In this document: one piece after another, positions 7,347-54,835 of the stretch
Layout of the letters: every line of letters begins with the position of its first letter
Numbering within the stretch: the first letter of the stretch is position 1
NCBI GenBank assembly: GCA_003134785.1
Contig: PLCN01000015.1
Span: forward strand, 62,001-126,000
DNA: 64,000 nt
Source: Spartobacteria bacterium
Lineage (GTDB): Bacteria > Verrucomicrobiota > Verrucomicrobiia > Chthoniobacterales > UBA10450
Direction: 5' to 3'
Made by a program: the position numbers and the translations under genes
Notes under the pieces: model-generated
The model's input: only the letters and a program-made list of their open reading frames with translations
The model's database searches: none
What the model was told of the DNA's origin: nothing

Positions 7347-7515
7347 GGCCGGGGAGGTCGCTCCACGAGAGTTACCGTTGCCGCCGCCAGAAGCGATAAC
7401 TCTGCCGGTGTCAGTGGCCGCAGGGGTTTTCGGCGACCGCAGTCAGTCATCGTTAGTTAACGACGGAGTTTGCGATACCACCTGACAGGTTGCATGCCCG
7501 GGATCTTAAAAAAGG

Positions 7516-10113
7516 CTAAGGGAGCGTATAGATGGCGATGACTCCTACGCCCGAAGTGTTATTCGCTCCGCGCATGATGGCGGTGTAAGCGCCGGGCGAC
7601 AGCCGCGCGATCAGGGCCGACTCCGCCGGATTGAAAGGCGCTAATCCGCTTTGCTGAATCGCTCCAGCTTGATCTGCGGTAATCACTCCGCCGATCTGCG
7701 TGGTTGGCCAGTCGTCATTCGCCGCGATGGCTCCGTTGGCATCGTGCAACTCCAACTGCGGGTCATCCATGGCGTTGCCCACACCAATGGCTCGCAACGA
7801 TGGACCGGCTGCTTCCACGATCACGTTGACCGGTTGGTTCGCCACCGTGAACCCGCCGATCAGAACGCTGTCGCCCAGCTGGACAAAGCCGCGCGTGCTG
7901 ATGTTAGTCAGGTTGGCCCCATTGTTCTGCGACAGATCATATACCTCCACGGTTCCGACGCCAGTGCCGCCACCTACTCCCTGCACAATCGCGGTGTAAG
8001 CCCCCGGCGCCAGAGTGGCGATGATCGCCGACTCCGCGGGGTCGACCGGCGCAAACCCGCTGCTCTGGATGTCGGCGGATTGGTCCGCGGTGATGACTCC
8101 ACCAATCTGGGTCGTCTGCCAATCGTCGTTGGTGGCGATGGTGCTGCTGGAGTCATGGAGTTCTAGCTGGGGATTGGCCAGGGCCCCGGCTACGCCGAAC
8201 TGAGTAAGCGAAGGTCCGGCGGCGCGGATGAACACCTTCTTCGGACCGGTGCCTTGGATGGTGAACCCAGCGAAGAGAACATTCTCTCCCGTTCCCACCT
8301 GCAGCCGGCTCGAGATATTGTTGAGAATGCCGGGAGTAGGTGTAGGCGCAGGGAGCTGGAATTCGAACGCGCCGATGTCAGTGGGGTTATTCCCGCCAAC
8401 GTTGGCAGAGTTCGGATCGTCCACCGGTCGCGGAAATCCGCGCTGGTCGATTGCAAAAATCGAGTTACCCTTATCGATCGCCAGGCTTCCGGGCAGGAGC
8501 GCGCGGGTGAAGGTCGGCCCGCCGTTATCCTGGAGCGGCCCCAGCATCGGGTCCTTACCGTTAAGGTCTGTGGTTTGACTAAGGACCGTATTATCGTTGT
8601 GAGTGCTCAGATTGTAGCCGGGGCTGGACGAGAACGAGCCGCCGTTTGTGCTGGAGAAGGTGGGCCCGCTATCGGCGAAGATGGTGTTATTGAAAGTGAT
8701 CTTCGAAGCGGAGTCTGAATGGACCGAATTGGTGGCGGCATTTCCCGCGATGGTGTCGTTAAAAAGACCGATGATCGTGCCGGATGGTCCGCCTGCCAAA
8801 ATCGTATCTCCGCTGGTAACTGAGTTATCGCTTATCGTGCAGTTAGCGAGTGACAAACTACTACCTCCATTCGCGAAAACAATGGAAGAGTTATTCGGAG
8901 TTCCAGAGTTCCCGGAGATCGTGCAGCCGGTTGCGCTCAACGTGCCCCCCGAGCTGGAGATCGCCACACCAATCCCGTTGCCTGACGTATTACCTGAGAT
9001 CGTGCAGTTTTGGAGATTAGCGTTGGTTGTGCTAAAGACAAGAGCATAGTCAACCTTATTATTGGTTATAAGCGAGTTCGATACATGCACCGTCGAGGAA
9101 GCAGCCTCAACGCCAGCGAATCCGCCGTTTGGTATATCTCTGATAACGACATGGTCGAGAGTCAGATCCGCGTTCATGGAAACAACTCCGAAATTTCCAC
9201 CACTCATGGTTAATGCTTGAATATTTATTTTCGGCTGGAACGAGGCCGTGCCAGAGGCGGAAAACGAGCCAGAGGCATCTCCGAGCGGCTTGGGCTGCAC
9301 CGTAAGAATGTCAGGACCGGGACCGGTGATGGTGAGGTCCGTGGTGATGTCTCGTAGCTCCTGCCCTAGACTGATCACATGCGGCGCGCTGCCAGGAGCG
9401 AAAACTGTCGGATCAAAGGTAATGATAGTGGCTCTTCCGATGGCATCGCGCAGACTGCCTGTCCCGCCGTCCACAGTCGTTGTCACCACGATAGGTCCGC
9501 GCAGGACGATTTGCAGGTTGTCGGCATATCCGTCGTTGTAAGCTCCGCCGTTATTTGCATCGCGAATCATGTAGAGGGCCGCACTAATGGTTCTTACTCC
9601 TGCTGGAAGGTACACCGTTTTTGCCCTGCTTAGTAAACCCGTCTTTCCGCCGCGATCAGCGGGGGTCACCGGACCGAGAGAAATGAATACCAGGTCCTTG
9701 CCGGCGCCATCTAGGAAGCTCACGTCGAATCGCGCACTGTCCCCGTCATTAACGTAGCCACCGAGCCATGCCTCAACGTCGCAAGCGACCTTCCCCGCAT
9801 CGATGTCCGCCGCATTGGCCGAAACATCGATATCCTGGTCGAGAACGCTCAAGGCTATCGAACCACCAGCGAAGAATGCCTTCAAGCGATCGGGAGGGCC
9901 GGGATCGGTCGTCGACGGGAAGCCGCCTTCTGCGCCGGCATACTGAACTACGGCCGGACTGCCGGTCTGGTTCCAGCCGGTAAGCGCGTTTTCGGCATTT
10001 CCGTTAACCAGCAAGTTTACGCCATAACTGGCGGCGCTGGCCTGGGCAGCGCAGGCCAAACCAAAAAAGGCGGCGGCAATGGTGGCTACAATGGATTTAA
10101 TCATTTCTTGCAT
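7516..10113 (-). CDS. Secreted beta-helix (choice-of-anchor Q) protein, copy 1
   Basis: About 865 residues from the ATG at 10113. A signal peptide (IVATIAAAFFGLACAAQASA) leads a domain beginning NLLVNGNAE. Then come the GSLRDAIGRA motif that marks the CSLREA-like/choice-of-anchor Q group, a parallel beta-helix with repeats such as CTISGNSG and CTISDNS, and the closing signature DQRGFPRPVDDPNSANVG...DIGAFE. After a PTPTP linker come two copies of a roughly 125-residue domain (NISSRLQVGTG...; NISTRGFVQLGD...) with GPSL, DPQLELHD and ESA-I-ATL. It lies 38 bases downstream of copy 2, with which it is nearly identical over its second half. A cell-surface or secreted role (adhesion or carbohydrate binding) is inferred. 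Confidence 0.85.
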   Translation of the reverse strand: MQEMIKSIVATIAAAFFGLACAAQASAASYGVNLLVNGNAENALTGWNQTGSPAVVQYAGAEGGFPSTTDPGPPDRLKAFFAGGSIALSVLDQDIDVSANAADIDAGKVACDVEAWLGGYVNDGDSARFDVSFLDGAGKDLVFISLGPVTPADRGGKTGLLSRAKTVYLPAGVRTISAALYMIRDANNGGAYNDGYADNLQIVLRGPIVVTTTVDGGTGSLRDAIGRATIITFDPTVFAPGSAPHVISLGQELRDITTDLTITGPGPDILTVQPKPLGDASGSFSASGTASFQPKINIQALTMSGGNFGVVSMNADLTLDHVVIRDIPNGGFAGVEAASSTVHVSNSLITNNKVDYALVFSTTNANLQNCTISGNTSGNGIGVAISSSGGTLSATGCTISGNSGTPNNSSIVFANGGSSLSLANCTISDNSVTSGDTILAGGPSGTIIGLFNDTIAGNAATNSVHSDSASKITFNNTIFADSGPTFSSTNGGSFSSSPGYNLSTHNDNTVLSQTTDLNGKDPMLGPLQDNGGPTFTRALLPGSLAIDKGNSIFAIDQRGFPRPVDDPNSANVGGNNPTDIGAFEFQLPAPTPTPGILNNISSRLQVGTGENVLFAGFTIQGTGPKKVFIRAAGPSLTQFGVAGALANPQLELHDSSSTIATNDDWQTTQIGGVITADQSADIQSSGFAPVDPAESAIIATLAPGAYTAIVQGVGGGTGVGTVEVYDLSQNNGANLTNISTRGFVQLGDSVLIGGFTVANQPVNVIVEAAGPSLRAIGVGNAMDDPQLELHDANGAIAANDDWPTTQIGGVITADQAGAIQQSGLAPFNPAESALIARLSPGAYTAIMRGANNTSGVGVIAIYTLP

Positions 10114-10151
10114 ATGGGTGAAGCACGGGGGCACGCCCCTAAAAGGCAAAG

Positions 10152-12779
10152 CTAAGGCAGAGTATAGATGGCGATCACTCCTACGCCCGAGGTGTTATTC
10201 GCTCCGCGCATGATGGCGGTGTAAGCGCCGGGCGACAGCCGCGCGATCAGGGCCGGCTCCGCCGGATTGACAGGCGCTAATCCGCTTTGCTGAATCGCTC
10301 CAGCTTGATCTGCGGTAATCACTCCGCCGATCTGCGTGGTTTGCCAGTCGTCATTCGCCGCGATGGCTCCGTTGGCATCGTGCAATTCCAACTGCGGGTC
10401 ATCCATGGCGTTACCCACGCCAATGGCTCGCAACGATGGACCGGCCGCTTCCACGATCACGTTGACCGGTTGGTTCGCCACCGTGAACCCGCCGATCAGA
10501 ACGCTGTCGCCCAGCTGCACAAAGCCGCGCGTGCTGATGTTAGTCAGGTTCGCCCCATTGTTCTGCGACAGATCGTATACCTCCACGGTTCCGACGCCAG
10601 TCCCGCCACCTACTCCCTGCACGATCGCGGTGTAAGCCCCCGGCGCCAGAGTGGCGATGATCGCTGACTCCGCCGGGTCGGCCGGCGCAAACCCGCTGCT
10701 CTGGATGTCGGCGGATTGGTCCGCGGTGATGACTCCACCAATCTGGGTCGTCTGCCAATTATCGTTGGTGGCGATGGTGTTGCTGGAGTCGTGGAGCTCG
10801 AGCTGTGGATTGGCCAGGGCCCCGGCTACGCCGACACTGGCAAGCGAAGGTCCGGCGGCGCGGATGAACACCTGCTTCGAGCCGGTGCCTTGAATGGTGA
10901 ACCCGGCAAAGAGAACGTTGTCTCCCGTTCCCACCTGGAGCCGGCTCGAGATATTGTTGAGAATGCCGGGAGTAGGTGTAGGCGCAGGGAGCTGGAATTC
11001 GAACGCGCCGATGTCAGTGGGGTTATTCCCGCCAACGTTGGCAGAGTTCGGATCGTCCACCGGTCGCGGAAATCCGCGCTGGTCGATTGCAAAAATCGAG
11101 TTACCCTTATCGATCGCCAGGCTTCCGGGCAGGAGCGCGCGGGTGAAGGTCGGCCCGCCGTTACCCTGGAGCGGCCCCAGCATCGGGTCGCGACCGTTAA
11201 GGTCTGTGGTTTGACTAAGGACCGTATTATCGTTGTGAGTGCTCAGATTGTAGCCGGGGCTGGACGAGAACGAGCCGCCGTTTGTGCTGGAGAAGGTGGG
11301 CCCACTATCGGCGAAGATGGTGTTATTGAAAGTGATCTTCGAAGCGGAGTCTGAATGGACCGAGTTCGAGGCGAAATTTCCGGCGATGGTGTCGTTGAAA
11401 AGGCCGATCGTCGTGCCGGATGGTCCGGCTGCGAAAATGGTATCACCGCTGGTAACTGAGTTATCGCTTATGGTGCAGTTAGCGAGCGACAAGCTAGACT
11501 GAGTCGCGTAAACAATGGAAGAGTTATTCGGAGTTCCGGAGTTCCCGGAGATCGTGCAGCCGGTTGCGCTCATTGTGCTGTCCTTCGAGCTGATAATCGC
11601 GACACCAATGCCGTTGTCCGATGTATTACCCGAAATCGTGCAGTTTTGGAGAAAGGCGTTGGTTGCGTCAAAGATAAGAGCATGGTTCACCTTATTATTG
11701 GTTATAAGCGAGTTCGATACATGCACGGTCGAGATTAGAGCTATAAGGCCAGCCTGCCCGCTGGGCATGTCTCTGATAACGACATGGTCGAGAGTCAGAT
11801 CCGCGAGCGAGGAAGTAACCTGACCGCCCATGGTTAATGCCTCGATCTTTATTTTCGGCTGGGACGAGCTGGAGCCGGATGCGTAAAACGAGAATCCAGC
11901 AGCGTAGAGCGGCTGCACCGTAAGAATGTCCGCACCGGGCCCGGTGATGGTGAGGTCCGTGGTGAGCTGCGGTAAATCCTGCGTCAGAGTGATCACGTGC
12001 GGCGCGCCGCTGGCAGCGAAAACTGTCGGATCAAAAGTAATGACCGTGGCTCTAGGGATAGCATCCCGCAGGCTGCCCGCGCCGCTATCAGCAATCGTTG
12101 TCACCACGATGGGTCCGCGCAAGACAACGCTCAGGCTGTCGGCGTACCCGTCGTTGTAAGATCCGCCGTTATTGGGATCGCGAGTCATACTAAGTCTGAC
12201 CTTAATGATTCGAGTCCCTGCTGGAACCGACACCGTTTCAAACCTCGGTAACAATCCGGTTTTCCCGCCGCGATCCGCTGCCGACACGGGACCCAAGGTA
12301 GGAGCGTTCCCGTTGCCATTAAGGGCATCCTGCATGAAGCCCATCATAAATTGCGCGGAGTCGCCATCGTTGAGGTAGCCCCCGAGCCAGGCAGTAATGT
12401 CGCAAACGACCTTCCCCGCATCGATGTCCGCCGCATAGGCTGAGACGTCCATACTCTGACTAAGACTGCTAGAGGCTGTAGAACCGCCGGCAAAGAATGC
12501 CTTCCCGCGATCGGGTGGACCGGGATCGGTCGTCGACGGGAAGCCTTCTGCGCCATACTGAACTACCGCCGGAGAGAAGGCCTGGGTCCAGCCGACAAGC
12601 CCGTTTTCGGCATTTCCGTTGACGAGCAAGTTTACGCCGTATCCCGCGGCGTTCGCTTCCGTAGGCGCGAGAAACGAAAGGCCGGCCGCCAAGACAAGCG
12701 CTGCGGCTGCTCTGGGAATGTTCCTGGGAGAGATGGCAGTGTTAGCGGTATGAAGTCCTCGGTCAAAAACCTTGGTCAT
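10152..12779 (-). CDS. Secreted beta-helix (choice-of-anchor Q) protein, copy 2
   Basis: 875 residues from the ATG at 12779, which follows an AAGG ribosome-binding site closely and opens a signal peptide (AAAALVLAAGLSFLAP); a longer frame to 12968 overlaps the divergent sigma factor. The domain order equals copy 1: NLLVNGNAE domain, GSLRDAIPRA, beta-helix, GFPRPVDD...DIGAFE, PTPTP linker, two C-terminal domains. From about 10166 to 11600 it aligns without gaps to 7530-8960 at a constant offset of 2636 bases, so the pair arose by recent tandem duplication or is kept alike by gene conversion. It is probably first in a two-gene transcript with copy 1. The N-terminal halves have diverged more. 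Confidence 0.86.
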   Translation of the reverse strand: MTKVFDRGLHTANTAISPRNIPRAAAALVLAAGLSFLAPTEANAAGYGVNLLVNGNAENGLVGWTQAFSPAVVQYGAEGFPSTTDPGPPDRGKAFFAGGSTASSSLSQSMDVSAYAADIDAGKVVCDITAWLGGYLNDGDSAQFMMGFMQDALNGNGNAPTLGPVSAADRGGKTGLLPRFETVSVPAGTRIIKVRLSMTRDPNNGGSYNDGYADSLSVVLRGPIVVTTIADSGAGSLRDAIPRATVITFDPTVFAASGAPHVITLTQDLPQLTTDLTITGPGADILTVQPLYAAGFSFYASGSSSSQPKIKIEALTMGGQVTSSLADLTLDHVVIRDMPSGQAGLIALISTVHVSNSLITNNKVNHALIFDATNAFLQNCTISGNTSDNGIGVAIISSKDSTMSATGCTISGNSGTPNNSSIVYATQSSLSLANCTISDNSVTSGDTIFAAGPSGTTIGLFNDTIAGNFASNSVHSDSASKITFNNTIFADSGPTFSSTNGGSFSSSPGYNLSTHNDNTVLSQTTDLNGRDPMLGPLQGNGGPTFTRALLPGSLAIDKGNSIFAIDQRGFPRPVDDPNSANVGGNNPTDIGAFEFQLPAPTPTPGILNNISSRLQVGTGDNVLFAGFTIQGTGSKQVFIRAAGPSLASVGVAGALANPQLELHDSSNTIATNDNWQTTQIGGVITADQSADIQSSGFAPADPAESAIIATLAPGAYTAIVQGVGGGTGVGTVEVYDLSQNNGANLTNISTRGFVQLGDSVLIGGFTVANQPVNVIVEAAGPSLRAIGVGNAMDDPQLELHDANGAIAANDDWQTTQIGGVITADQAGAIQQSGLAPVNPAEPALIARLSPGAYTAIMRGANNTSGVGVIAIYTLP

Positions 12780-38965: not shown

Positions 38966-40423
38966 CTAGATTTCTTCTCTTTCGGGCTGGAATGTTTGAC
39001 CGGGGTCGAGCGCCCGCGGCGGCCGCGGATGGGACAAAAATTTCGCAACATCTGCGCTGTAATTTTCGAATGGATTTCCCATCACGAGAAAATCGCGATT
39101 ATCGCACGCGATTGAATCCCAATTAATCACGTAGGGTTGATCGCTCTTCTGAAACCATGCGACGGCCTGCGCTCGACCCGCGGCGCGCGTGTTCGCCGGC
39201 GGATGATAGCCCGCCTCATGTCGGCGAACGCTGTTGTTCCATTCGCCAATTCGTTTCGCCGGGTTCACGCCAAAGAACAATCCTTTCTCGGGATCGATGT
39301 TGTGATATTCGAGATCCAAACTTTGCAGCCACGGATCGTCCCAGCCGATTCCCTCCGCTTCCATGAAAGTTTCCAAGAGCCATTTCTTCGTGATCCAGTC
39401 CACGCCGCCGATGAGGGCTTCCGGTTTGTTGCCGAGCGCTTCGAGCGTGAAGCTCCAGCTCTCGAGCAACCAATCGGTTTCTTCATTCGCGCCCCCGAGA
39501 TGTTTCTGGGCCAGCTCGTAGAATTGCCATTGAATCTCGAGAGCGCCGATCGTCTTGCCGTTTTCCAACCGCACGATCCACGCGCCCGTCGGATCACGAG
39601 AAATGTCGCGCGTGCTTTGGACGGCATCGCTCAGGCTCAGATTTTTGGGGAGCCGCCCCTCTTCGAGCAACGACAAGACGCAAGCCGTGGTCCCGATTTT
39701 CAGCGCGGTCGCAAATGGACTCATGTTGGAATCGCCGATGAGAAGATGGAGCCGGCGGTATTTGCGATAATCCGCCAGCGGCTCGTCGCGGGCATTGATG
39801 ATCGCGCGATTGAATTGCACCCACTGGTAAATGTCATTGACGATGTGGTCGGCGCGCTGGCTCAACTGGAAGTCCACGTGGACTTCCGGTTGCGGCAATT
39901 GGAAATCGAACGCGAGCGGGTTCGCCTGCCCCACCCGGCCCGCGCCCGTGAAAATCTGGCGCGTGGCGAGAAAGGCCAGCAGCGTGCCCAGGACCGGCGG
40001 AGTGAACTGCGCTTCGCGCTTCATTAAATAATTTTCGTGGCACCCGAAAGTCGCGCCGGTGTTGTGATCGATGTTGTTCTTGATGAAGGAAACGCGATCG
40101 GCCGCCTCGAGCGATTCGAGGGCCGCTTGCAGGAGCTGATCGCCCGCCACGTCGTACGTCACCACATCGTGCAGATGCAAACATTCCGGCGACGCATACT
40201 CGATATGACCCATGTCGAGGTAGAGCCGGCCGCCATTGAGGAGGAAACCACCGTTGCCCGGCGGCTCTTCGTAATCGCGGTAATGCAGATCAATCGCGCC
40301 AACTTCCGCTTTCCGGAAGAGGAAATTCTTCACCCTGACCGGCCAGGCATCGGTATGCCCGCGCCCGTCCTCTCCGCTGACGAGGCAGCCATATTCTGTT
40401 TCGATCCCGGCAACGCGATCCAT
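38966..40423 (-). CDS. PafA/Dop-family ligase (Pup- or UBact-type protein ligase)
   Basis: 485 residues from the ATG at 40423 (MDRVAGIETEYG). This carboxylate-amine ligase fold links a small Pup-like modifier to target lysines (PafA) or removes it (Dop). Visible signatures: GIETEYG, NGGRLYLDMGHIEYASPE with the catalytic Asp, NNIDHNTGATFGCHENYL, FQLSQRADHI, NARDEPLADYRKYRRLHLLIGDSNMS. GDSNMS, LDLEYHNIDPEKGLF and the C-terminal NPF favour PafA over Dop. The roughly 40-residue Dop loop is not obvious. No Pup, UBact, Mpa or proteasome gene lies in this window, so its partner must be elsewhere. Family certain; ligase versus hydrolase less so. Confidence 0.85.
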   Translation of the reverse strand: MDRVAGIETEYGCLVSGEDGRGHTDAWPVRVKNFLFRKAEVGAIDLHYRDYEEPPGNGGFLLNGGRLYLDMGHIEYASPECLHLHDVVTYDVAGDQLLQAALESLEAADRVSFIKNNIDHNTGATFGCHENYLMKREAQFTPPVLGTLLAFLATRQIFTGAGRVGQANPLAFDFQLPQPEVHVDFQLSQRADHIVNDIYQWVQFNRAIINARDEPLADYRKYRRLHLLIGDSNMSPFATALKIGTTACVLSLLEEGRLPKNLSLSDAVQSTRDISRDPTGAWIVRLENGKTIGALEIQWQFYELAQKHLGGANEETDWLLESWSFTLEALGNKPEALIGGVDWITKKWLLETFMEAEGIGWDDPWLQSLDLEYHNIDPEKGLFFGVNPAKRIGEWNNSVRRHEAGYHPPANTRAAGRAQAVAWFQKSDQPYVINWDSIACDNRDFLVMGNPFENYSADVAKFLSHPRPPRALDPGQTFQPEREEI

Positions 40424-40540
40424 TGAATCAATTAGCGAATTAACGAAGTAACCTTGCGATTGAAATTCATCCAATCGGCGGATTGCTCAAAGGAAATTCG
40501 CGGACTTGAAAGCTGGCGCGGAAATCAGACGTTAGGACAC

Positions 40541-42824: not shown

Positions 42825-42898
42825 GCACCCGTAGCTCAACTGGATAGAGCATCTGACTACGGATCAGAAGGTTTGAAGTTCGAATCTTCACGGGTGCG
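42825..42898 (+). tRNA. tRNA-Arg (anticodon ACG)
   Basis: A 74-base cloverleaf without CCA. Acceptor GCACCCG pairs with CGGGTGC, discriminator G. D-arm GCTC/GAGC. Anticodon stem TCTGA/TCAGA with loop CTACGGA, anticodon ACG at 42859-42861. T-arm TGAAG/CTTCA with loop TTCGAAT. A34 should be edited to inosine by TadA to read CGU, CGC and CGA. Confidence 0.96.
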
Positions 42899-42999
42899 CG
42901 TCTATGACAGCGCGGCTGATCGCATGGCGTCATGCCTCGCCTTCTCATCGATGGGCCTTCTTTCTTGCAAACAAGACAATCTTTGCCGTATGAACAAAT

Positions 43000-43215
43000 A
43001 TGGCTGAGGCAAAAACGGACCAGAACCCAGTTGGGAAGGGCGGGGCCGGCAAAGAAAAGGGCGAGGGCGACCGCGCTCAGGTATCAGGGCGGGGAGGGCA
43101 ATTAATCTACACTTGCCCTCAATGCGGAGCGCAAAACTACGTCGATCCCAATTGGACGTGGTTCACGTGCTGGCGGTGCGAGTTCAAGAAGCCCATGTCG
43201 CTGCCGGACAGTTGA
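43000..43215 (+). CDS. Small zinc-ribbon protein
   Basis: 71 residues. A lysine/glycine-rich, low-complexity N-terminus is followed by one zinc ribbon: CPQCGAQNYVDPNWTWFTCWRCEFKKP, with two CxxC pairs 17 residues apart. Such small ribbons bind nucleic acid or proteins. It lies directly downstream of tRNA-Arg and about 180 bases before the ECF sigma factor start. No more specific family is recognised. Confidence 0.7.
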   Translation: MAEAKTDQNPVGKGGAGKEKGEGDRAQVSGRGGQLIYTCPQCGAQNYVDPNWTWFTCWRCEFKKPMSLPDS

Positions 43216-43392
43216 GAGCGTCTTCCGTCGCTGCGCGAACGGCCTGACGGCGACTCAGGTCCAAGGTTGCGGACATTGGTTCGTTTCACTGATTTGTTTG
43301 CGACGCCCTTCGGCGATCCCAATATCGGCGAGCACTCGTCTGGCCTAAAACTGTTGACGCCCAAGACGGGGAACTTATCCTCCTGTGTTTTC

Positions 43393-44076
43393 ATGGCGCA
43401 ACCGCAAGCCACACCCACTCACGAGCAGGATCTGAACTTCGTTCAGCGCGTTTTGACTGTAAACGGCGCGGCCGCCGCCGAATTGCGCAGCCGATATCAT
43501 GGCCGAATCGTGGCCGTTCTTTGCGCCAGAGGAGCGAATCCAACCGAAGCGGAAGATTTGGTGGCCGATCTGTGGTCGGACTGTTTCGCGGCACCGCCGG
43601 ACCGCAAGACTTTGCTCGGCAAATACCAGGGCCGCTGCGCGCTCGAATCGTGGCTGCTCACGGTGGCGACGCACCGGTTGGTTGATCTTAAACGGCGACA
43701 GACCTTCCGCGTCGATGTTCCTCCCTCGGAACGGGGTTCGGACGATTTTTTCGATCGAAGGCCGCACCCGGAATCGGTTGCGAGCGAAGCGCGCCTGCTA
43801 AAATTATTGCGCGAGGCAATTCGGAACGCATTCGCCAAGAGAGATTCCGAATCGGTGCTGATGCTAAAGCTCGTTCATCTTCATCAATTGACGCAGCGCG
43901 AGATCGCTCGGATGTGGGGCTGGCACGAATCGAAGGTCAGCCGCGCCCTCGAAGTCGCGCGCCAGAATATTGCGCGGGATATTTTGTCAGAGCTAAAGCG
44001 AATAGACCCTTGGCTCGAACTTCGCTGGGAGGATTTCCTCGAGCTTTGCGCCGGGTCGGCCGATGCACTTTTCTAG
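43393..44076 (+). CDS. ECF-type RNA polymerase sigma factor
   Basis: 227 residues from the ATG at 43393 (MAQPQATPTHEQDLNFVQRV). Region 2: ELRSRYHGRIVAVLCARGANPTEAEDLVADLWSDCFA and YQGRCALESWLLTVATHRLVDLKRR. Region 4: LMLKLVHLHQLTQREIARMWGWHESKVSRALEVARQNI, a clear helix-turn-helix. Divergent from standard ECF groups, with the DLVADLW form common in Planctomycetes and Verrucomicrobia. The following genes (anti-sigma-like, GAF, subtilase) are probably its regulators or regulon. Confidence 0.83.
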   Translation: MAQPQATPTHEQDLNFVQRVLTVNGAAAAELRSRYHGRIVAVLCARGANPTEAEDLVADLWSDCFAAPPDRKTLLGKYQGRCALESWLLTVATHRLVDLKRRQTFRVDVPPSERGSDDFFDRRPHPESVASEARLLKLLREAIRNAFAKRDSESVLMLKLVHLHQLTQREIARMWGWHESKVSRALEVARQNIARDILSELKRIDPWLELRWEDFLELCAGSADALF

Positions 44077-44256
44077 CGTGAGGAAGATAATTCGCAAAAA
44101 CTCTAACCTTATGAGTCTAAGATGAGAGGTAGAAAATAACGCAGTGGCCGCTCTGGTTCTGATGGCGCCGCCCTTCGTTCATTTGCCCAAAAGCACAATG
44201 AATATCCATTTTCCTGCTCGCAAAAGAGCCACGTTCCATCAGCCCGGGTCACGCGT

Positions 44257-44490
44257 GTGAACGACGATTTCCAAATTCTGTTTGAGCTTCTGGAAGGTGG
44301 CGTCCAGGAAGTGTCCGGCCGTGCCGCGGCCACGGTATCATCGGACCTTCGCGAAAAGATTGCGAAATTTGCGGCGGGCACGTGTAATGAAGAGGAGCGT
44401 GATCAAATGAAGAAGTTATTGCGAGAACAGCCGGATCTAATTCCGGTGCTGGTGACCGAGATCCGAGCCCTCCGTCCCGCCGACGCATGA
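44257..44490 (+). CDS. Small helical protein, possible anti-sigma factor
   Basis: 77 residues, GTG start. Wholly helical and acidic. The stretch KIAKFAAGTCNEEERDQMKKLLREQPDLIPVLVTEIRAL resembles the N-terminal segment of anti-sigma factors (a G-x-x-x-EER-x-x-x-x-x-L pattern). There is no membrane helix and no zinc-binding HxxxCxxC, so any such role is inferred from size and from lying between a sigma factor and a sensor gene. Its TGA overlaps the GAF gene's ATG (ATGA). Confidence 0.55.
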   Translation: MNDDFQILFELLEGGVQEVSGRAAATVSSDLREKIAKFAAGTCNEEERDQMKKLLREQPDLIPVLVTEIRALRPADA

Positions 44491-45110
44491 TCACTGTCCG
44501 CGCCAATTTTCTTCCCGAGCAACGATTTCTGCCGCTGCGCCCGGTTCTGCAAGAGCATCTCACGAAAGTGGGCAACGCGGTCAAACCGGAAAATTTCGTC
44601 AGCATCTGCGACGAAGTGCTGCTCAAGCTTCTGAAAGACACGTTTGAACGGATCGGCGCGGACGAAGGCAGCATCTGGCTGATCGACCACGAGAAAAAGG
44701 CGCTCGTGGCCACTTATAATAGCGGGCCGAATTCCGAAAAAATCGTCGGGTTCGAACTGCCCTTGGGTGAAGGCATCATCAGTTTGGTGGTCGCGAGCGA
44801 AAACGCCTTTATCGAAAACAAGGTCTACAAGAACGCGAAGCACAACAAAGTGCTTGGTGAGAAGTTGGGAAAGACCACCTACGCCATGATCGCGGTGCCG
44901 CTTTATTTTCTCAATCAGGTCCGGGGAGTTATCTCCTGCGTTCAGCTTCTTGATGTGCTCATTAAGGAGGGACAAGCCGAACCTACCGGAGAAACGCCAC
45001 CGGGCTTCAAGCCTGCGGATCTCAACGCCGTCCAAACGGCTGCTGCCGTGGTCAGAGACTTGGTCGATTATCGACTCCTTGGAACTGCTGTAGGATGGAA
45101 CCGGCACTAG
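44487..45110 (+). CDS. GAF-domain sensor protein
   Basis: 207 residues. One GAF domain spans about 45-195: GADEGSIWLIDHEKKALVATYNSG, FELPLGEGIISLVVASENAFIENKVYKN, KTTYAMIAVPLYFLNQVRGVISCVQL. GAF domains bind cyclic nucleotides, haem or other small ligands. There is no output domain, so it must act through a partner. It is coupled at both ends: start inside the upstream small gene, last 16 bases overlapping the subtilase start. The most probable partner is therefore the subtilase or the anti-sigma-like protein. Confidence 0.82.
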   Translation: MITVRANFLPEQRFLPLRPVLQEHLTKVGNAVKPENFVSICDEVLLKLLKDTFERIGADEGSIWLIDHEKKALVATYNSGPNSEKIVGFELPLGEGIISLVVASENAFIENKVYKNAKHNKVLGEKLGKTTYAMIAVPLYFLNQVRGVISCVQLLDVLIKEGQAEPTGETPPGFKPADLNAVQTAAAVVRDLVDYRLLGTAVGWNRH

Positions 45111-45898
45111 CTACGGACTTCAGCCCTTTCAGACTGGAGGAAGCCCGTCAGGCTTTGGCCAACGGAACCGGCAAAGGTGTTCGAATTGCCGTGATCGATT
45201 CGGGGATTGAAATCGATCATCCGGAACTGGCCGGTCTCACCTTGGTGGACGACCTCCAGGTCGTCGACGCTGGCGTCCAGATCGAGGTAAAACCGGGAAA
45301 CGGCGTCGATGTTTACGGGCATGGCACAGCGGTCGCGGGCGTGATCCGTCGCATCGCGCCGGATGCAGAGATCGGAAGCATTCGTGTGCTGGGCGAGAAT
45401 CTGGGTTCGCGCACCGTCATTATTCGAGAAGGCGTCCGGCAAGCGATCGATCGCGGCTATCACATTTTGAATTGCAGCTTCGGTTGCGGCTTGGCCGAAC
45501 ACATCTTTCAATACAAAGAGTGGATCGACGAAGCGTACCTCAAAGGCATCCACATCGTCTCCGCCTGCAATAACTATGACTTCACCACGCCGGAGTGGCC
45601 CGGTTATTTTCCAAGTGTCGTAACTGTCAATATGGCGCGTTCGGATGACGATCGGGCCTTCTTCTACAAACCCGGCCACCTGGTAGAATTCGCCGCCCGC
45701 GGGGTGGACGTGAAGCTGCCTTGGAACCACCATTCAGTGAAAGAAGTTACCGGAAGCAGCTTCGCCGCGCCGATTATGAGCAGCTTGCTGGCTCGACTCG
45801 TTTCCGGAATGCCTGGCCTTCTCCCCCTGGAGGCAAAATCGCTTCTGCATCGTTTGGCCATGCCATGGCGAGCTGATGTAACGGGCCCTAACGCGTAA
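45095..45898 (+). CDS. Cytoplasmic subtilisin-like (S8) serine protease
   Basis: 267 residues with no signal peptide and no propeptide, so it should act inside the cell. The triad is complete: Asp35 in VIDSGIEIDHPE, His76 in YGHGTAVAG, Ser222 in TGSSFAAP; Asn159 or Asn160 (SACNNYD) is the likely oxyanion residue. At 267 residues it is a minimal S8 domain. Co-translation with a GAF sensor and an anti-sigma-like protein suggests regulated cleavage of a specific cytoplasmic protein rather than general digestion. Maturation of a peptide is another possibility. Confidence 0.87.
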   Translation: MEPALATDFSPFRLEEARQALANGTGKGVRIAVIDSGIEIDHPELAGLTLVDDLQVVDAGVQIEVKPGNGVDVYGHGTAVAGVIRRIAPDAEIGSIRVLGENLGSRTVIIREGVRQAIDRGYHILNCSFGCGLAEHIFQYKEWIDEAYLKGIHIVSACNNYDFTTPEWPGYFPSVVTVNMARSDDDRAFFYKPGHLVEFAARGVDVKLPWNHHSVKEVTGSSFAAPIMSSLLARLVSGMPGLLPLEAKSLLHRLAMPWRADVTGPNA

Positions 45899-45925: not shown

Positions 45926-47122
45926 ATGACTGCTAGCTCCGCCTTACCTTCCCGAATTCTCCCAGTCTCGATCCTGACCGGACCTTCTACTCGCGCACTC
46001 TTGCAGGACATTGTGACGAGTGATCCGGACGGTCGATTCGGTTTCCTAGCCAGTGCGAATAGTAAAGACGATGCAGGTCCCGCGAGCCAGACAATCCCGG
46101 AAGCACTGGTGTTCCAGGAGTTGGTGGAGGCGGGCGAGCAAGGCGGTTATGACCCGGCACAAGTAAGCGCTCAGATCGCAGCCTTTGCTGAGAACGCTAA
46201 GGTTGATCACCTTATCGTCGAGTGTGACTCCAGAACTCATCCGATTGCATTCGCGTCGCTCTTCTTACCACAGGCGGAAGAGCAAGGTTTGTCAGAGCTT
46301 GCCCGGCTCAGCTCCATCGTGCTGTCGATCGACTCCGAGGCTTTGCTTCACTCGCTTGTTCAAGGCAGGCACGTTCCTGGGCTCGCCTCGCCTTGCATCC
46401 TTGCCGACCAAATCGAAATCGCCAACCTGGTCGTGCTCTCGGGCGACGCTGCCGATGACGACTTCGCAATTGCCCAGGCAATTGTCTTGGCGATCAACCC
46501 GCGCGTCCGCATTGTCCCGCGGTCCTCTGAGAAAAGATTAGTGAAACTGTTGGATACCCAGATTTCATTTGATTTTGAGGCGGCGACAGAAGGCGCTGGA
46601 TGGCGGAAAGTGATCGAGGAGGAAACAGGTGCTGGTGCTAACGACAACAAGATAACGACCTTCGCCTATCGCGCGCGCCAGCCATTCCATCCCGAGAGGC
46701 TATGGAACCTACTGCAGAGTCCCCTAGCCGGTATCCTTCGCGCGAAAGGCTACTTCTGGCTTGCGACCAGGATGAATCTCGTGGGAGGGCTTAACATCGC
46801 CGGCTCTGAGTGCCATTACTCTCCCGCGGGCGAATGGTGGGCCGCGGTCGCTCACAAGGACGGCTCCGAACACCTTGAAATGCCGGACCGTTTCAAGAAG
46901 GTGTGGAAGGAACCTTTTGGCGATCGTCGCCAGGCGATTGCTTTCATTGGGATCGACGTGGATCATGCGGAGCTTTACGCACAGCTTGACGCCTGTCTTC
47001 TAAACGACTCCGAAATGACTGCAGGCAAAAGTAGCTGGCCAAGCTTGCCTGACCCGTTTCCGGCATGGTCCGCTCACACGCACGACCATGAATGTGACGA
47101 CCACGACTGTTGTCACCACTAG
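45926..47122 (+). CDS. COG0523/CobW-related protein lacking the GTPase motifs
   Basis: 398 residues. The start PVSILTGPSTRALLQDIV corresponds to the CobW/YjiA P-loop PVTVLTGFLGAGKTTLL, but GxxGAGKT is gone. The CxCC metal-binding motif and NKxD are also absent. VDHLIVECDSRTHPIAFASL still parallels LLIESTGISEP. The CobW C-terminal domain is intact (FAYRARQPFHPERLWNLL, RAKGYFWLATR, GGLNIAGSE). The tail HTHDHECDDHDCCHH binds metal. It could be a non-hydrolysing zinc or nickel buffer, or a regulator of a true COG0523 protein. It lies 27 bases after the subtilase gene. Confidence 0.75.
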   Translation: MTASSALPSRILPVSILTGPSTRALLQDIVTSDPDGRFGFLASANSKDDAGPASQTIPEALVFQELVEAGEQGGYDPAQVSAQIAAFAENAKVDHLIVECDSRTHPIAFASLFLPQAEEQGLSELARLSSIVLSIDSEALLHSLVQGRHVPGLASPCILADQIEIANLVVLSGDAADDDFAIAQAIVLAINPRVRIVPRSSEKRLVKLLDTQISFDFEAATEGAGWRKVIEEETGAGANDNKITTFAYRARQPFHPERLWNLLQSPLAGILRAKGYFWLATRMNLVGGLNIAGSECHYSPAGEWWAAVAHKDGSEHLEMPDRFKKVWKEPFGDRRQAIAFIGIDVDHAELYAQLDACLLNDSEMTAGKSSWPSLPDPFPAWSAHTHDHECDDHDCCHH

Positions 47123-47236
47123 TTCGACCAAGTCCGGTTAAGTAGCCCTATTCGGTTTCTGATCTCGCGTAGGCGAGGTCCGTCGGCGTCTGACATTCCC
47201 TGCAAAGCCTGGCCGCTCGACCGTCTTTACTCGGTC

Positions 47237-47527
47237 ATGATCCAATCCTCACCCTCGGGCTCATCTGCGTCATTTGATAATTCGAATGACGACCTGCCGG
47301 CGCTTCCTATTTGGTCGTTTGCGCTCGGGGTTCTGGCGCTCCTTACCTTCGGACTTACGTCCGTACCGGCCATCATCTGCGGACATCGGGCGCTTGCGGA
47401 AACGAGAGGGGCAAGTAGCGGATCGCTAGGACGATCCGTTGCGGTTATCGGCCTCGTTATTGGTTACGTTGGGGTGGCGCTCCTTGGAACGTGGATAGCG
47501 GTGGCGGTTAGGTATCTCTGTGCGTAA
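47237..47527 (+). CDS. DUF4190 small membrane protein
   Basis: 96 residues with the DUF4190 pattern: LPIWSFALGVLALLTFGLTSVPAIICGHRALAE...GSLGRSVAVIGLVIGYVGV. Two transmembrane helices linked by a conserved cytoplasmic loop (GHRAL). Function of the family is unknown; it is found in many soil bacteria. It converges with the operon ending at 47554, with only 26 bases between the stops. Confidence 0.85.
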   Translation: MIQSSPSGSSASFDNSNDDLPALPIWSFALGVLALLTFGLTSVPAIICGHRALAETRGASSGSLGRSVAVIGLVIGYVGVALLGTWIAVAVRYLCA

Positions 47528-49437: not shown

Positions 49438-52400
49438 CTAACGCCAGTCGCCCATGAGAATAAAGGGCGCCCAGTAAAGTGGCCGTGAGAACTTCGGATT
49501 CCGCAGCAGCTTGAGCTCGGCAGTTTGCAGCGCGGCCGCTTTCGTAACACCGGGAATGGCCAGTTGTTTGTAGAACTCAACCATTAGTTCCTTGGTGCTT
49601 TCGTCGCCCACGCTCCAGAGGCTTGCCAGCACGGTAGTAGCTCCGGCGGTTGAAAAGCCTTCAGCCAGCGAAGTGATCTCCGTGCCATCCGGGTCTTTGC
49701 CCCCGACAGCTGATTCGCAGGCAGAGAGGGTGACGAGAGTTACCTTCTTGAACGGCAGGTCCCAGATTTCGTCCACCTTCAAGCGCTCCAAATCCGGCGG
49801 GCCTCCCATGGCCAGCTGAATGTAGCTTTCGGTTGGATTAGTGGCATCGAGTCTGCCGTGCGTCGCAAAGTGAATGATTCGTTTGTCCAGGACTTGCTCC
49901 TTATGCAAGGATGCTTTCGTTACATCGCCTCCCGACATGACTTCAGTAGAAGGGAAGACCTGCGCGATAGCTTTCACTTCCTGTTCTGACGCGGGCAGGT
50001 TTGCACCGGTGGGATTGCCGAACGCGGTCATGCCGCCGGGTGACTTGGACTTATCTGCCCCCTGAATGACACTCAATACGTCAGCGCCTGCGAGGTAGAC
50101 GATCTCCTTATCTTCGATGAGGTATCTGATCTTTCCATCGGCCTGCTTCTTCGCCAGCGCATGGATAGGTAAATAAAAGAGCCTTTGGTTCGGGATGATC
50201 GCCACTGTCTTGATCCCCTCCAACTCAGGCTCGATGGGCCTAATCAACAGGTCGTAAAGGGCGATCAAGTTCTTATCGAGCGGCCCCCCCTTCTCCCCGC
50301 TGATGATCTGCGCGCGGACAGTATCGATCTTCTTCCAAAGATCCTCCGGCTTGGTCGGAGCTACCACGATTTTCACTTCCTTCGAGTTCACGAGGAAAAT
50401 GTAAAGCTGATCGGCCATGGGAGCGTATTGGACCAGCAGGACACCTTCTGGGATGCCTCTTCTCGCAACCTCGAGGGATTTCGGGTTGAACTCCATATGC
50501 TGCGCCCAGTTAGGACTCGAAGACTTTATCTTTTCAAAGACCCGACGCATGTCTCCCTGTCCGGTCACGACGACCCTTTGCAGGTTCTCAATTTTCGTTT
50601 GATCGCGCTGTCCTTCCGGCTTTGTCTTCTCCACCTGGAGTTGAGTGGTAGCTGTCTCCACCTGCTTTTCCAAGGCGCTGGCTTGATCGATGAGGGCCTG
50701 AGTGGCTTTGTCACCGCTCTTCACGCTGGAAAGGCGAAGTGATTCCTGGAGCTTCTTCGATTTAGCCCGGTTGAGATAATCGAATGCTTCGCTCGTTCGA
50801 TTCAGCTTAACCAAGACTCGAACGATCCGTTCGTAAGGGCGGTAGTTTCGCTTCACGTCCGCAAACGCGGTCTCCGATGCGGCGGTCGATCGCACGCTTT
50901 CCACCAGTTTCACCGCTTCCTTGTATGCTTCCAAGGCCTTCTCGTTCTCTCCCTTTCCTTCTAGCATTTCACCTTCAATCCCAAGTGTTCCGATCCGGTC
51001 GCTAACCGAGCCTGTCTTCGCGTCAGCGGCGTGCGCTTCGTCGATTAGCGTTTTCGCTTCATCGAGCTTGTTCTGCTTCACCCGGATGGACGCCAGGGTC
51101 CGGGTCGAGCCGGAGACAGCTCCCAGGTTGCCCGTCTTACGCGCCAGCGCGAGCGCCTCTTCCCCACGACTCGCCGCTTCATCCAACTTGCCTTCATCAC
51201 GCGCGATGACAGCCAGAAAACCTGTAGCTGACACGACACTATTCAGCTTATGCGCCGCAGCAAAAATCTGGCGCGCTTGTTCGAGAAAATGCCGGGCGTT
51301 CTCGGTGTCGCCCTTGCTATGAGCAAGGTCCGCTGCTTGTTGGAGCGACTGCGCGGTCCAATCGTCCTGTCCAATGTTTCGCTTCAGCGCGATCGTCTCA
51401 TTCAACTCTTTCAAAGCCAAGTCGACCTCACCGCTTTCGGCATGCAAGGAAGCCATGTCACCAAGTACTCGGGCACGGATACGTGCGCGGAAGATCTCGA
51501 AGATGTTGATATAACCACCCTTCGGCAGCCCGTCACCGAGCTTAAGTGCCTTCTTGTAATAAGAGAACGCGGTCTTCAGGTTGCCTTCCTCCTGGCTGAT
51601 TCCTCCAAGGTTTGTCAAGGCCAGGGCTTCCGACATGGTGTCCGCCGCAATGGTCATATCCCGAGTCATAGCCTCGGACTCTTCGTGCTTGGCCAGCTCT
51701 TCCTTCGTCATAGCTGCCTTCTGTTCCGGAGTGTAGAAGCGATCCTCTCCCAGCGCCTTCTTGCGCACGGCCGCCGAGGCGTCGATACTAGCCAGCGCCT
51801 GCTGGTAGTAATCGCGCGCTTTGTCCAGATCGCCCACGTTATACACGTACATGCGGGCCAGTGAGTTCAAGCTTTCCTCCAGCTTGCGGTCCGCCATGTC
51901 CTCGGGCAGTGCACGGCGCAGAGCCAGGGCTTCAAGACCATTCTTCTCCGCCTGGTCGAAAAGAGCGAGGTCCGCTTGCGCGCCCGATACTCGCTCCAGC
52001 GCGGTAGCTACCTGGACCTGTTTGTCGTCTATCTCGGCCTTCGGCGCATTCACTTTTTGGAGGTAGCTCATTTCCAAGCGCCGGATTTCCAGTTCCTGTT
52101 GGGTATACTTGAGCAAACTTTCCGCGTCGTCATTTTCGCGAGCGACCTGCTCGAGCTGAGAGATGGTGTTATAACGTGTGATGTAGCGATTTTTCTCAAA
52201 GCCGTGGATGAGCTTTCGCAACATTTCCTTTTTTGATTCTTCCGGGGTCGCGAGCTGGGCTTGGAGTCTCTTGATCTGGTCGTCTACCTTGTTGTCCAAC
52301 TCGACCGCGCCACTGCGCAGGTAATCCTCCAAGTAAGCACGCGCGTTCACATGGCTGTCTTCCTTAAGTTCCGCGCTCTTCGCAAACCAGGTCGCGGCCT

Positions 52401-52695
52401 CGTCAAACTTGCCGGCATCGAAGGCCAGCCATGCGATGTCGGACGCGATCTGCATCGCGCTCCTGGCCGCATCGGCCCGCTCTTTCGTTTTCTCCTTTGC
52501 CGCGGCACGGATCTCGTCCGCTTTCTTAAACTGTGCCTCCAACTGGGCCCGGTCGGGCTTTGCACTCGCCGCGGGCGACGGCTTCGCATCCTGACTCCAA
52601 AGCGCGGACGGAATTCCTAAGGCAATGAGAGCGAAGGCAACGAGGGCAGGTCGAAGAAGAAATCTCATCGCATGTCTAGAAACGTTGCTTTTCAT
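49438..52695 (-). CDS. Secreted CHAT (caspase-like) protease with TPR array
   Basis: 1085 residues; the start may be nine codons later (MRFLLRPALVAFALIALGIP), which opens the signal peptide. Most of the protein is TPR repeats and coiled coil (residues about 60-700). The C-terminal CHAT domain (about 760-1080) has the caspase-type dyad: His in IIHFATHGRLD and Cys in VTLSACESAVGG, followed by GFSTAGATTVLASLWSV. CHAT domains are cysteine peptidases that cut specific partners. In the operon it lies between a CHASE2-cyclase and a DUF4062-TPR gene. A signal peptide implies action in the periplasm, which is unusual for defence-type CHAT proteins. Confidence 0.9.
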   Translation of the reverse strand: MKSNVSRHAMRFLLRPALVAFALIALGIPSALWSQDAKPSPAASAKPDRAQLEAQFKKADEIRAAAKEKTKERADAARSAMQIASDIAWLAFDAGKFDEAATWFAKSAELKEDSHVNARAYLEDYLRSGAVELDNKVDDQIKRLQAQLATPEESKKEMLRKLIHGFEKNRYITRYNTISQLEQVARENDDAESLLKYTQQELEIRRLEMSYLQKVNAPKAEIDDKQVQVATALERVSGAQADLALFDQAEKNGLEALALRRALPEDMADRKLEESLNSLARMYVYNVGDLDKARDYYQQALASIDASAAVRKKALGEDRFYTPEQKAAMTKEELAKHEESEAMTRDMTIAADTMSEALALTNLGGISQEEGNLKTAFSYYKKALKLGDGLPKGGYINIFEIFRARIRARVLGDMASLHAESGEVDLALKELNETIALKRNIGQDDWTAQSLQQAADLAHSKGDTENARHFLEQARQIFAAAHKLNSVVSATGFLAVIARDEGKLDEAASRGEEALALARKTGNLGAVSGSTRTLASIRVKQNKLDEAKTLIDEAHAADAKTGSVSDRIGTLGIEGEMLEGKGENEKALEAYKEAVKLVESVRSTAASETAFADVKRNYRPYERIVRVLVKLNRTSEAFDYLNRAKSKKLQESLRLSSVKSGDKATQALIDQASALEKQVETATTQLQVEKTKPEGQRDQTKIENLQRVVVTGQGDMRRVFEKIKSSSPNWAQHMEFNPKSLEVARRGIPEGVLLVQYAPMADQLYIFLVNSKEVKIVVAPTKPEDLWKKIDTVRAQIISGEKGGPLDKNLIALYDLLIRPIEPELEGIKTVAIIPNQRLFYLPIHALAKKQADGKIRYLIEDKEIVYLAGADVLSVIQGADKSKSPGGMTAFGNPTGANLPASEQEVKAIAQVFPSTEVMSGGDVTKASLHKEQVLDKRIIHFATHGRLDATNPTESYIQLAMGGPPDLERLKVDEIWDLPFKKVTLVTLSACESAVGGKDPDGTEITSLAEGFSTAGATTVLASLWSVGDESTKELMVEFYKQLAIPGVTKAAALQTAELKLLRNPKFSRPLYWAPFILMGDWR

Positions 52696-52726: not shown

Positions 52727-54835
52727 TTACTTTGTCTTTAGTTCGTAGATTCCGTTCCAATCTTTCGGCGGATCGGCTCTTAGTTCCTGGCATCTCTCCT
52801 CCATAAGCGCACTTGGTTTGTCTCGCTCAACATCGCGGAGAACAGCGAATCTCTCTTCCGCTGCGGCGAAGTCCCCTTGCTCATAGGCAGCGAAGGCTGA
52901 GTTATATTGCTGGGCGATTTTCTCGAAGTTATCAGGGCTGAAGGGATGTCGCACGTCCAACAGCTCCAGCGGAAGCGTCTTACCTTTTACGAGGACCTTA
53001 TCAACCAGGCGGATTAACGCTGGTGCGGAGAGTTTGGCGAAGGCCTCGCGTGTTATCAGGAAGAGTACTCCATAGTGCTTGGTCAGAGATTCGACCCGAG
53101 CCGCGGAGTTGATTAAGTCTCCGACGAGGCCGTAATCAAGCCGTTGCGCTGATCCCTTATTTCCAATCAATGCACTCCCGCTATGAAGGGCCACGCCATA
53201 ACCGAAGAGCGTTTTCACCTTGGGATCTAATCTCGGGCGTAACTCTTCCATTCCTTCAATGAGCGAAAGCGCGGCCCGAAAAGCGCGATCCGTCGCGTCC
53301 GGTTGCGGGTCGGGAGCACCCCAGTAGCTCAGGAACTGGTCGCCGAGAAAATGTTCCATGCTGCCGTCCTCAGCCATTATCGCTTTGGTCTGCGTTTCAA
53401 AGACTTGATTCAAAAGCTGAAAGGTTCCGCCAGGTCCCAGAGTCTCGGCGATGGAGGTGGAGTTGCGGAGATCCGTGAGAAGGAGAGTCAGTTCCGCTTC
53501 CTGCGGTTCCATCGAGCCGGGATTCTTCAGGACATGCTCCATGATGTGCGGCGAAAAATAGAGACCCATGGTGGCGCGAAGCTTCAGTCTCTGCATGAAT
53601 TCGTAGCTCTGCCTTCTTCCCAGTTCGACAAAGGTCACAAGGCTCCAGACTACACTTGCGCTAACCAGACCCGGCACCCAGCCCGCTTTGATGATGAACA
53701 CGGCACTGAGTACCCCGGCCAACGCTACAAGAGCGATCCAAAACAGAAGAAGCGGCAAGGTTCGCCGAAACAGCCTGGCGATCGCGCCAAATAGAATCAG
53801 GGAGAGAATAGCTAAAGCATCCACCCAACGCGGGCTCCGTCTCAGCCAGTTGCGCTGCATTAGATCGTCCAAGGCCGTCGAATGCAATAGGACCCGCGGC
53901 TGATTCGCTGCCAGCGACGTCGTACCCACGTCTCCCAGCCCCGAGCCGTAGTAGGAGACAAGGATGATTGCGTTGGTCAGCGGTTGTGCGTTGATCTTTC
54001 TGCTCGTTTCGTAGAGCTCGCTCAACTGCGACACATTGTAGTGCCTGAAAGCAGCGGGACCAGACCCGGCCCATGGGCTTCGATAGTTCAAAAGAACTGG
54101 AGCGAGATTTACCTCGCGGGGCTCGATCGTGGTGAAATCGCCCGCGATTTCTTCCCATCGCATGAAGCCTGGTCTCGGAAAAGTAACTCCTTTCTCCCAA
54201 TCCACATCCCGCCAGGCCAGATAACAAGCTAGACCTAATGATGGCTCATACTTATCTCCGGAGCGGTAGACATAGTCATAATGGCGCAGGACCCCGTCAC
54301 TATCTGCCTGCACATTGATCAAGCCTGCCGGTGTCACTCTATTTCGAAATGGAAAGGATCGGATTCGCTCCTCCTTTCCGTTATCCGCGGAGGGCAGAAG
54401 CGCTTCAGCGAAGATCACGCTTCGGCTGTCAGCCTTGGCGCGCTCTGCTGCCTTCAAAATCGGATCTGCCATGGCCTGATCTCCGCGCCCGAACACGACA
54501 TCGAACGCTACCACTCGGGCACCGAGCTCAGTCGCCTCCCTGATGATGGTGGCGACGTTTTGATATTCGAGTTCGAGGGTCGGCAGCTTCTCCAAAGCTT
54601 CTCGCGTGACATCGACATGGACAATGCTTGGATCCGCCGGCGGAGCGAGGCCATGCTCATAACGCCAGCGCAGGACCTGGCCGAACCATCGCATCTCCAG
54701 GGGCTCGACCGGACTGCCTGCGACTAGAACCCACAGTGCGGCCAATCCGCAAATCGCGAGGAGCAGCGGCCACGGAGACCTTAACCAAATCCGCTCATCC
54801 GCAGGATTTGTCAGGACCGAATTGCCGGCCATCAC
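52727..54835 (-). CDS. CHASE2-domain class III nucleotide cyclase
   Basis: 702 residues. An N-terminal helix, then an extracytoplasmic CHASE2 sensor (about 60-345: DPSIVHVDVTREALEKLP, VVAFDVVFGRGD, ILVSYYGSGLGDVGTTSL), three further helices (LAILSLILFGAIARLF; LLLFWIALVALAGVLSAVFII; LVSASVVWSLVTFVEL) and a class III cyclase (LLLTDLRNSTSIAE with metal Asp; HFLGDQFLSYWG with the second Asp; GDLINSAARVE). The Lys usual before FxGD is His here, so adenylate versus guanylate specificity is open. Its start overlaps the stop of the secreted protein gene (ATGA). Confidence 0.9.
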   Translation of the reverse strand: MMAGNSVLTNPADERIWLRSPWPLLLAICGLAALWVLVAGSPVEPLEMRWFGQVLRWRYEHGLAPPADPSIVHVDVTREALEKLPTLELEYQNVATIIREATELGARVVAFDVVFGRGDQAMADPILKAAERAKADSRSVIFAEALLPSADNGKEERIRSFPFRNRVTPAGLINVQADSDGVLRHYDYVYRSGDKYEPSLGLACYLAWRDVDWEKGVTFPRPGFMRWEEIAGDFTTIEPREVNLAPVLLNYRSPWAGSGPAAFRHYNVSQLSELYETSRKINAQPLTNAIILVSYYGSGLGDVGTTSLAANQPRVLLHSTALDDLMQRNWLRRSPRWVDALAILSLILFGAIARLFRRTLPLLLFWIALVALAGVLSAVFIIKAGWVPGLVSASVVWSLVTFVELGRRQSYEFMQRLKLRATMGLYFSPHIMEHVLKNPGSMEPQEAELTLLLTDLRNSTSIAETLGPGGTFQLLNQVFETQTKAIMAEDGSMEHFLGDQFLSYWGAPDPQPDATDRAFRAALSLIEGMEELRPRLDPKVKTLFGYGVALHSGSALIGNKGSAQRLDYGLVGDLINSAARVESLTKHYGVLFLITREAFAKLSAPALIRLVDKVLVKGKTLPLELLDVRHPFSPDNFEKIAQQYNSAFAAYEQGDFAAAEERFAVLRDVERDKPSALMEERCQELRADPPKDWNGIYELKTK

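Follow-up and report, generated by a model that had tools for sequence, protein, structure and literature searches.

The arrangement of an ECF-type sigma factor gene, a gene for a small protein, a GAF sensor gene and a gene for a cytoplasmic subtilase (family S8) at positions 43393–45898 of the 64,000-nucleotide stretch analysed here (contig PLCN01000015.1 of a Spartobacteria bacterium; hereafter the window) raises the question of whether the protease controls the sigma factor and, if so, which protein it cuts. An earlier note on this DNA had read the arrangement as a sign of controlled proteolysis within the cell, with the small, anti-sigma-like protein as a possible target. Its coordinates for all four genes hold, as do both gene overlaps, the start of the GAF gene overlapping the end of the 77-residue gene (ATGA at 44487) and the GAF and S8 genes sharing 16 bases from 45095 (Table 1). 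The sigma gene starts with ATG, with a longer TTG start at 43267 being possible, and the 77-residue gene starts with GTG, as does its homologue in locus L023. The description of the four genes as one run stands for their positions, but the sigma gene and the small–GAF–S8 genes are probably two transcription units, because the gap of ~180 bp between the sigma and 77-residue genes contains its own ECF promoter-like element (44093–44118). A Zn-ribbon gene begins 393 bp upstream of the sigma gene, at 43000, just downstream of a tRNA-Arg(acg) gene (42825–42899). The same tRNA gene precedes a Zn-ribbon gene away from the S8 locus in two further genomes (G006 and G004), so the adjacency of the Zn-ribbon and sigma genes in the window may be incidental.

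Table 1 Features of the sigma–subtilase locus, in window coordinates.
Feature	Position	Strand	Remarks
Zn-ribbon promoter, ECF-type, TGCAA-N16-CGTAT	42966..42991	+	Spacer exactly 16
Zn-ribbon protein, 71 aa, multi-copy family, motif form QVSGR	43000..43215	+	~9 copies in this genome
Predicted cleavage motif Q-V-S-G-R of Zn-ribbon protein	43078..43092	+	From alignment
ECF-type sigma factor, 227 aa	43393..44076	+	TIGR02937 and Pfam Sigma70_r2 above cut-off
Small–GAF–S8 promoter, ECF-type, CGCAA-N16-AGTCT	44093..44118	+	One of 10 strict genome sites
Soluble anti-sigma-like protein, 77 aa	44257..44490	+	N-terminal helix, disordered EVSGR linker, three-helix bundle; weak NCBIfam match
Predicted cleavage motif E18-V-S-G-R22 in disordered linker of 77-aa protein	44308..44322	+	
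Stand-alone GAF sensor, 207 aa	44487..45110	+	Pfam GAF_2/GAF; AF2 pLDDT 93
Cytoplasmic subtilase (S8), 267 aa	45095..45898	+	Triad D35/H76/S222; Glu167 = subtilisin position 166

The ECF sigma, GAF and S8 identities given in the earlier note are borne out by domain scores above cut-offs: the sigma protein reaches 50.6 bits against TIGR02937 (sigma70-ECF, cut-off 42.9) and 25.2 against Pfam Sigma70_r2 (cut-off 24), with a weak r4_2 match, the GAF protein exceeds the Pfam gathering score of GAF_2, and the subtilase exceeds that of Peptidase_S8 (PF00082, 1e-26). No hydrophobic signal segment is present at the N-terminus of the subtilase, and the computed pI of the 77-residue protein is 4.6. The catalytic triad (D35, H76, S222) is invariant in 28 S8 sequences. 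Residue 167, an invariant Glu, aligns with Gly166 of subtilisin BPN′, and all S8 proteins checked that are linked to the motif described below have Glu at this position, which is occupied by G, T, S, R, A, N or V in outgroup subtilases, with the exception of the Gemmatirosa S8 (E). As Glu would lie at the base of the S1 pocket, a basic P1 residue is predicted. The BPN′ substitution Gly166Asp shifts preference to P1 Lys, and a related S8 protease takes an aliphatic residue at P4 and only Gly/Ala at P2, with P3 turned towards the solvent (PMC3378952). Several known subtilase families were considered and rejected, namely the T7SS mycosins (score 95.8, cut-off 278.75), IetS (weak PADLOC matches only) and QhpE, likewise a small subtilisin-like protease (NCBIfam QH_SP, 7e-22), for which the score is 77.8 against a cut-off of 165 and no quinohemoprotein amine dehydrogenase genes were seen near the window S8. 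A defence-system reading was also set aside, PADLOC subtilase matches being general or weak and its models giving no match to the partner proteins.

Scanning 84,980 species genomes with the S8 protein yielded 42 loci, nearly all in Verrucomicrobia, with the remainder in Gemmatimonadaceae, Acidobacteria and two weak Saprospiraceae matches. Conservation of the neighbourhood, which the earlier note had named as a check on its idea, was found: the GAF and S8 genes are neighbours in all 41 loci examined (the window's and L023–L062), and the sigma and small genes accompany them in ~23, including Verrucomicrobiaceae in which the latter pair is on the opposite strand. No sigma or small gene lies within reach in ~17 of the 41, some of these being on short contigs. 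The subtilase is sporadic in the phylum, given its presence (E<1e-35) in 8 of 387 evenly sampled genomes. Miltoncostaea (Actinomycetota) and Gemmatirosa (Gemmatimonadota) carry sigma–S8–GAF sets too, on plasmids. A phage origin was set aside, as phage matches were absent and plasmid matches were limited to two distant ones. A few genes upstream of the Miltoncostaea set, a 186-residue protein (L152, 78–635) carries many ETEAHAxRxGRD repeats, which resemble the motif variant EVEAH.

Other genes of these neighbourhoods include a CobW/ZigA-like gene directly 3′ of the window S8 (45926–47122), which is kept in the genus. Its product has a degenerate P-loop (ILTGPSTRALL), the L032 homologue having an intact GxxGSGKT, and is possibly a pseudo-GTPase metallochaperone. 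A Pup ligase family protein (PF03136, 1e-126) is encoded on the minus strand of the window (38966–40474), and a large protein with a CHAT-like C-terminus is encoded near the S8 gene of L095.

The 77-residue protein has no family match apart from a weak one to an N-terminal part of a putative anti-sigmaE protein (NCBIfam, 0.008). Its AF2 model comprises a helix (4–13), a disordered linker (14–28) and three helices (29–72), and the best PDB match, a weak one, is the RskA domain 4nqw_B (E-value of 8.1 in Foldseek; Z-score of 3.5 in VIA, with an rmsd of 2.5 over 49). Class I anti-sigma domains carry an extra helix C-terminal to a three-helix bundle. No such C-terminal fourth helix, which contacts sigma2 in the class I domain (ASDI), is present in the AF2 model, and the extra helix (4–13) is N-terminal. 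As modelled, the protein resembles a soluble anti-sigma domain that lacks zinc and has its EVxGR linker exposed. The distant locus L110 (G151) has the gene order sigma, zf-HC2-type anti-sigma, GAF, S8 and ABC transporter, so that by sequence (zf-HC2-type match, E 2e-4, just below the Pfam cut-off) the slot of the small gene is occupied there by a recognisable anti-sigma factor. The small gene is present three times in tandem behind the sigma gene of G056 (L096), the copies carrying the motifs DVSGR, EAFGR and EVSGR. In L108, the only counterpart of the motif in the small protein is the degenerate SALAH.

Alignment of 23 small proteins revealed that the linker motif is their most conserved element, above the helical bundle, with G21 being one of two invariant columns and V19 nearly invariant; AlphaFold assigns this linker pLDDT values <50. 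The motif follows the consensus [ED][VIA]x[GA][RH] across families. Of the 17 protein families represented in these loci by ≥5 non-redundant members, only two carry it at one column in every member, the small protein (18/18) and a YkuD L,D-transpeptidase precursor (14/14). The S8 family reaches 60% by coincidence, through its catalytic D-x-x-G-H, and the remaining families do not exceed 20%. Across the genome, the EVxGR codon pattern shows no enrichment (162 occurrences, 184 in the control), and the motif is therefore informative only in combination with family conservation. The CobW-like protein was rejected as a substrate, the genus copies lacking the motif. Residues of the motif map to protease subsites as E(P5), V(P4), x(P3), G/A(P2), R/H(P1). 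The cytoplasmic S8 leader peptidase ElxP has the site (D/E-5)(L/V-4)x2(Q-1), and the NisP site ends in R-1 (PMC10885120). EVxGR is thus probably, on sequence grounds, the cleavage site of the S8 protease, which would cut after the basic residue.

Two other roles for the motif and the protease were weighed against this evidence. EVxGR could instead serve for docking, with the GAF protein or RNA polymerase as possible partners and the target of S8 elsewhere, and the invariance of its central Gly is known from some docking motifs; we regard this as improbable, given that the pattern fits subtilisin subsites S5–S1, that Glu166 predicts its basic last residue and that it is located in a disordered linker or directly before a hydrophobic signal-like segment. 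Alternatively, the target that the subtilase degrades or inactivates might be the sigma factor and not the small protein; such targeting of sigma was proposed for ECF54-type neighbourhoods on the basis of subtilase and CHAT genes nearby (PMC8999054). The window likewise contains a TPR-CHAT gene (49438–52695), a few kb from GAF–S8 and next to a CHASE2 adenylate/guanylate cyclase gene (52727–54835). The column-conserved motif is, however, found in the small protein and not in the sigma family under the same family control, and ECF54 is described as having no anti-sigma factor, which makes sigma degradation a very remote prospect. The two systems share an ECF sigma factor beside a subtilase and the proposal of proteolytic control; they differ in the inhibitor, and neither a GAF partner nor a common motif is mentioned for ECF54 (PMC8999054).

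The motif extends to two further protein families. Zn-ribbon genes are present in ~9 copies in this genome and in 4–9 copies in each genus member, and essentially all members carry the motif or a close variant at a fixed place that separates the ribbon from a charged N-terminal tail. They occur in 9/9 genomes with S8 and in 1/49 without (p = 9e-10, with fewer independent events behind this value, as the genomes are mostly of one genus). The single exception, G004, has eight Zn-ribbon genes and neither an S8 nor a CobW gene, perhaps due to an assembly gap. Two marginal matches in S8-less genomes (G025 and G427) lack the motif. In G306, from another family, the S8 and Zn-ribbon genes are 0.7 Mb apart, and the Zn-ribbon protein carries EVGGR and is encoded next to an ABC transporter. 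In 12 loci the L,D-transpeptidase precursor gene immediately follows S8, and in two more it is close by. In the nine proteins checked, the motif precedes the start of the most hydrophobic segment of the entire protein by 9–10 residues, and this segment resembles a signal peptide with A-x-A at its end.

These Zn-ribbon genes also allow a reading in which peptide maturation comes first, S8 being the leader peptidase of RiPP-like Zn-ribbon precursors, which the adjacent ABC transporter would export, with the sigma pair only regulating the cluster and the motif of the small protein serving as a secondary feedback site. The layout of EVxGR equals that of lanthipeptide leader sites, and outside the genus of the window Zn-ribbon genes usually adjoin an ABC exporter (close by in L027, L028, L062, L094, L095, L131 and L138). 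The sigma–small–GAF–S8 genes of L041 are followed (7076–10446) by genes for a 111-residue peptide ending in WFHRD repeats, two radical SAM proteins (one with SPASM) and an 81-residue peptide, a stretch that looks like a RiPP cluster. Most loci, however, have no modifying enzyme, the ribbons resemble folded Zn ribbons, the Zn-ribbon copies within the genus are scattered with no ABC gene recognised beside any of them, and the anti-sigma-like protein and the L,D-transpeptidase, neither of which is a peptide precursor, keep the motif just as strictly. We therefore consider this reading unlikely.

A shared promoter element places the small gene and the Zn-ribbon genes in one predicted regulon. GCAA-N16-.GT[AC] is found in 37/66 of their upstream regions (small gene, 10/15; Zn-ribbon within the genus, 20/38; Zn-ribbon in other families, 7/13) and in 9/703 controls, at least three of these nine being system genes themselves, although the associated Fisher value (2e-36) overstates significance because many of the sequences are related. 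Spacers other than 16 are at background level, and the element recurs in different bacterial families. The strict form has 10 sites in the genome (5 in the reversed control), six of which precede small–GAF–S8 (one), Zn-ribbon genes (four) and a Zn-ribbon relic that protein searches had missed (one). This truncated relic (L147, 2760–3041; G000 C8) was found only via its intact promoter. The strict sites at C2, C4 (264637 and 359183) and C17 fall inside or next to unrelated genes and seem to be chance occurrences. In the window, a strict GCAA-N16-CGTCT site also occurs 36 bp upstream of a gene for a 96-residue DUF4190 membrane protein (47201–47527) and is not kept in most genus relatives.

The core idea of the earlier note is thus supported by the linker motif, the matching S1 residue of S8, the common sigma-type promoter and the zf-HC2-type anti-sigma factor in the corresponding slot of the distant locus; it was incomplete in that the motif, the other likely substrates and the separate promoter had been missed.

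The candidate switch for the protease is the GAF protein, whose gating of S8 is suggested by gene adjacency and overlap. The confident GAF model (AF2) has the GAF domains of PDE10A, PDE2A, CyaB2 and Lcd1 as its closest solved folds. The NKFDE signature of cyclic-nucleotide GAFs is absent, the N and K positions not being kept, F174 being invariant and D178 being present in 19/37. Class III cyclase genes adjoin some loci (L034; L052–L061), and one is present in the window. The fold matches and nearby cyclases therefore speak for cAMP or cGMP as ligand, and the missing signature speaks against it.

From the conserved neighbourhood, the shared motif, the shared promoter and the pocket residue, we infer a circuit in which sigma binding and inhibition, cleavage, GAF gating and export are the predicted steps. 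A small cytoplasmic signal would activate the GAF protein, which would turn on the translationally coupled subtilase. S8 would then cut the anti-sigma-like protein after R22 in its flexible linker, separating the N-terminal helix from the three-helix bundle and releasing the ECF sigma factor. Freed sigma would transcribe the small–GAF–S8 operon from GCAA-N16-GT[AC], giving both positive and negative feedback, together with a set of small Zn-ribbon genes behind the same promoters, whose products the same subtilase may trim between the charged tail and the ribbon. The ABC exporters near such genes outside the genus suggest that these products are exported. In related systems, the L,D-transpeptidase precursor would be cut before its internal signal-peptide-like segment, which would thereby be exposed for export. 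That a GAF-gated subtilase cuts the anti-sigma factor at EVxGR, frees sigma and processes regulon products is, from sequence, a reading we consider more probable than not. The broader proposal that one ligand-gated cytoplasmic subtilase reads the EVxGR tag in the anti-sigma factor as a gene switch, in Zn-ribbons for maturation and in the L,D-transpeptidase for protease-triggered export is more tentative, and we give it slightly less than even credence.

The four-part combination was not found described in a search of the open-access literature. The closest parallel is CalpL–CalpT–CalpS of type III CRISPR, in which a signal-sensing cytoplasmic protease cuts a soluble anti-sigma factor and frees an ECF sigma factor (PMC11417357), as predicted here. 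CalpL, however, combines Lon and SAVED in one chain, senses cA4 and is CRISPR-linked, whereas in the window system the protease is an S8 enzyme, the GAF sensor is a protein in its own right and there are several more candidate substrates with the tag. The lanthipeptide leader peptidases ElxP and NisP are also S8 proteases, ElxP being cytoplasmic, with a similar site layout (PMC10885120). The window system differs in its linkage to GAF and sigma genes and in candidate substrates that include the anti-sigma-like protein and the L,D-transpeptidase, and no lanthionine-forming enzyme or lanthipeptide precursor gene was recognised among the part of the neighbours that was scanned. Regulated intramembrane proteolysis of RseA and RsiW similarly frees sigma by anti-sigma proteolysis, predicted here with a soluble inhibitor and no membrane step. 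For soluble anti-sigma factors, the review that describes ECF54 lists only conformational change, partner switching and mechanosensing as modes of control and does not list proteolysis (PMC8999054).

The analysis yields a testable candidate cleavage site of five residues and a predicted regulon promoter. If the proposed circuit is correct, it would represent a second, non-CRISPR route by which a cytoplasmic signal-gated protease frees an ECF sigma factor. Under the broader proposal, one protease would couple gene activation, product maturation and secretion, the last possibly because the cut uncovers a signal peptide hidden within the precursor.
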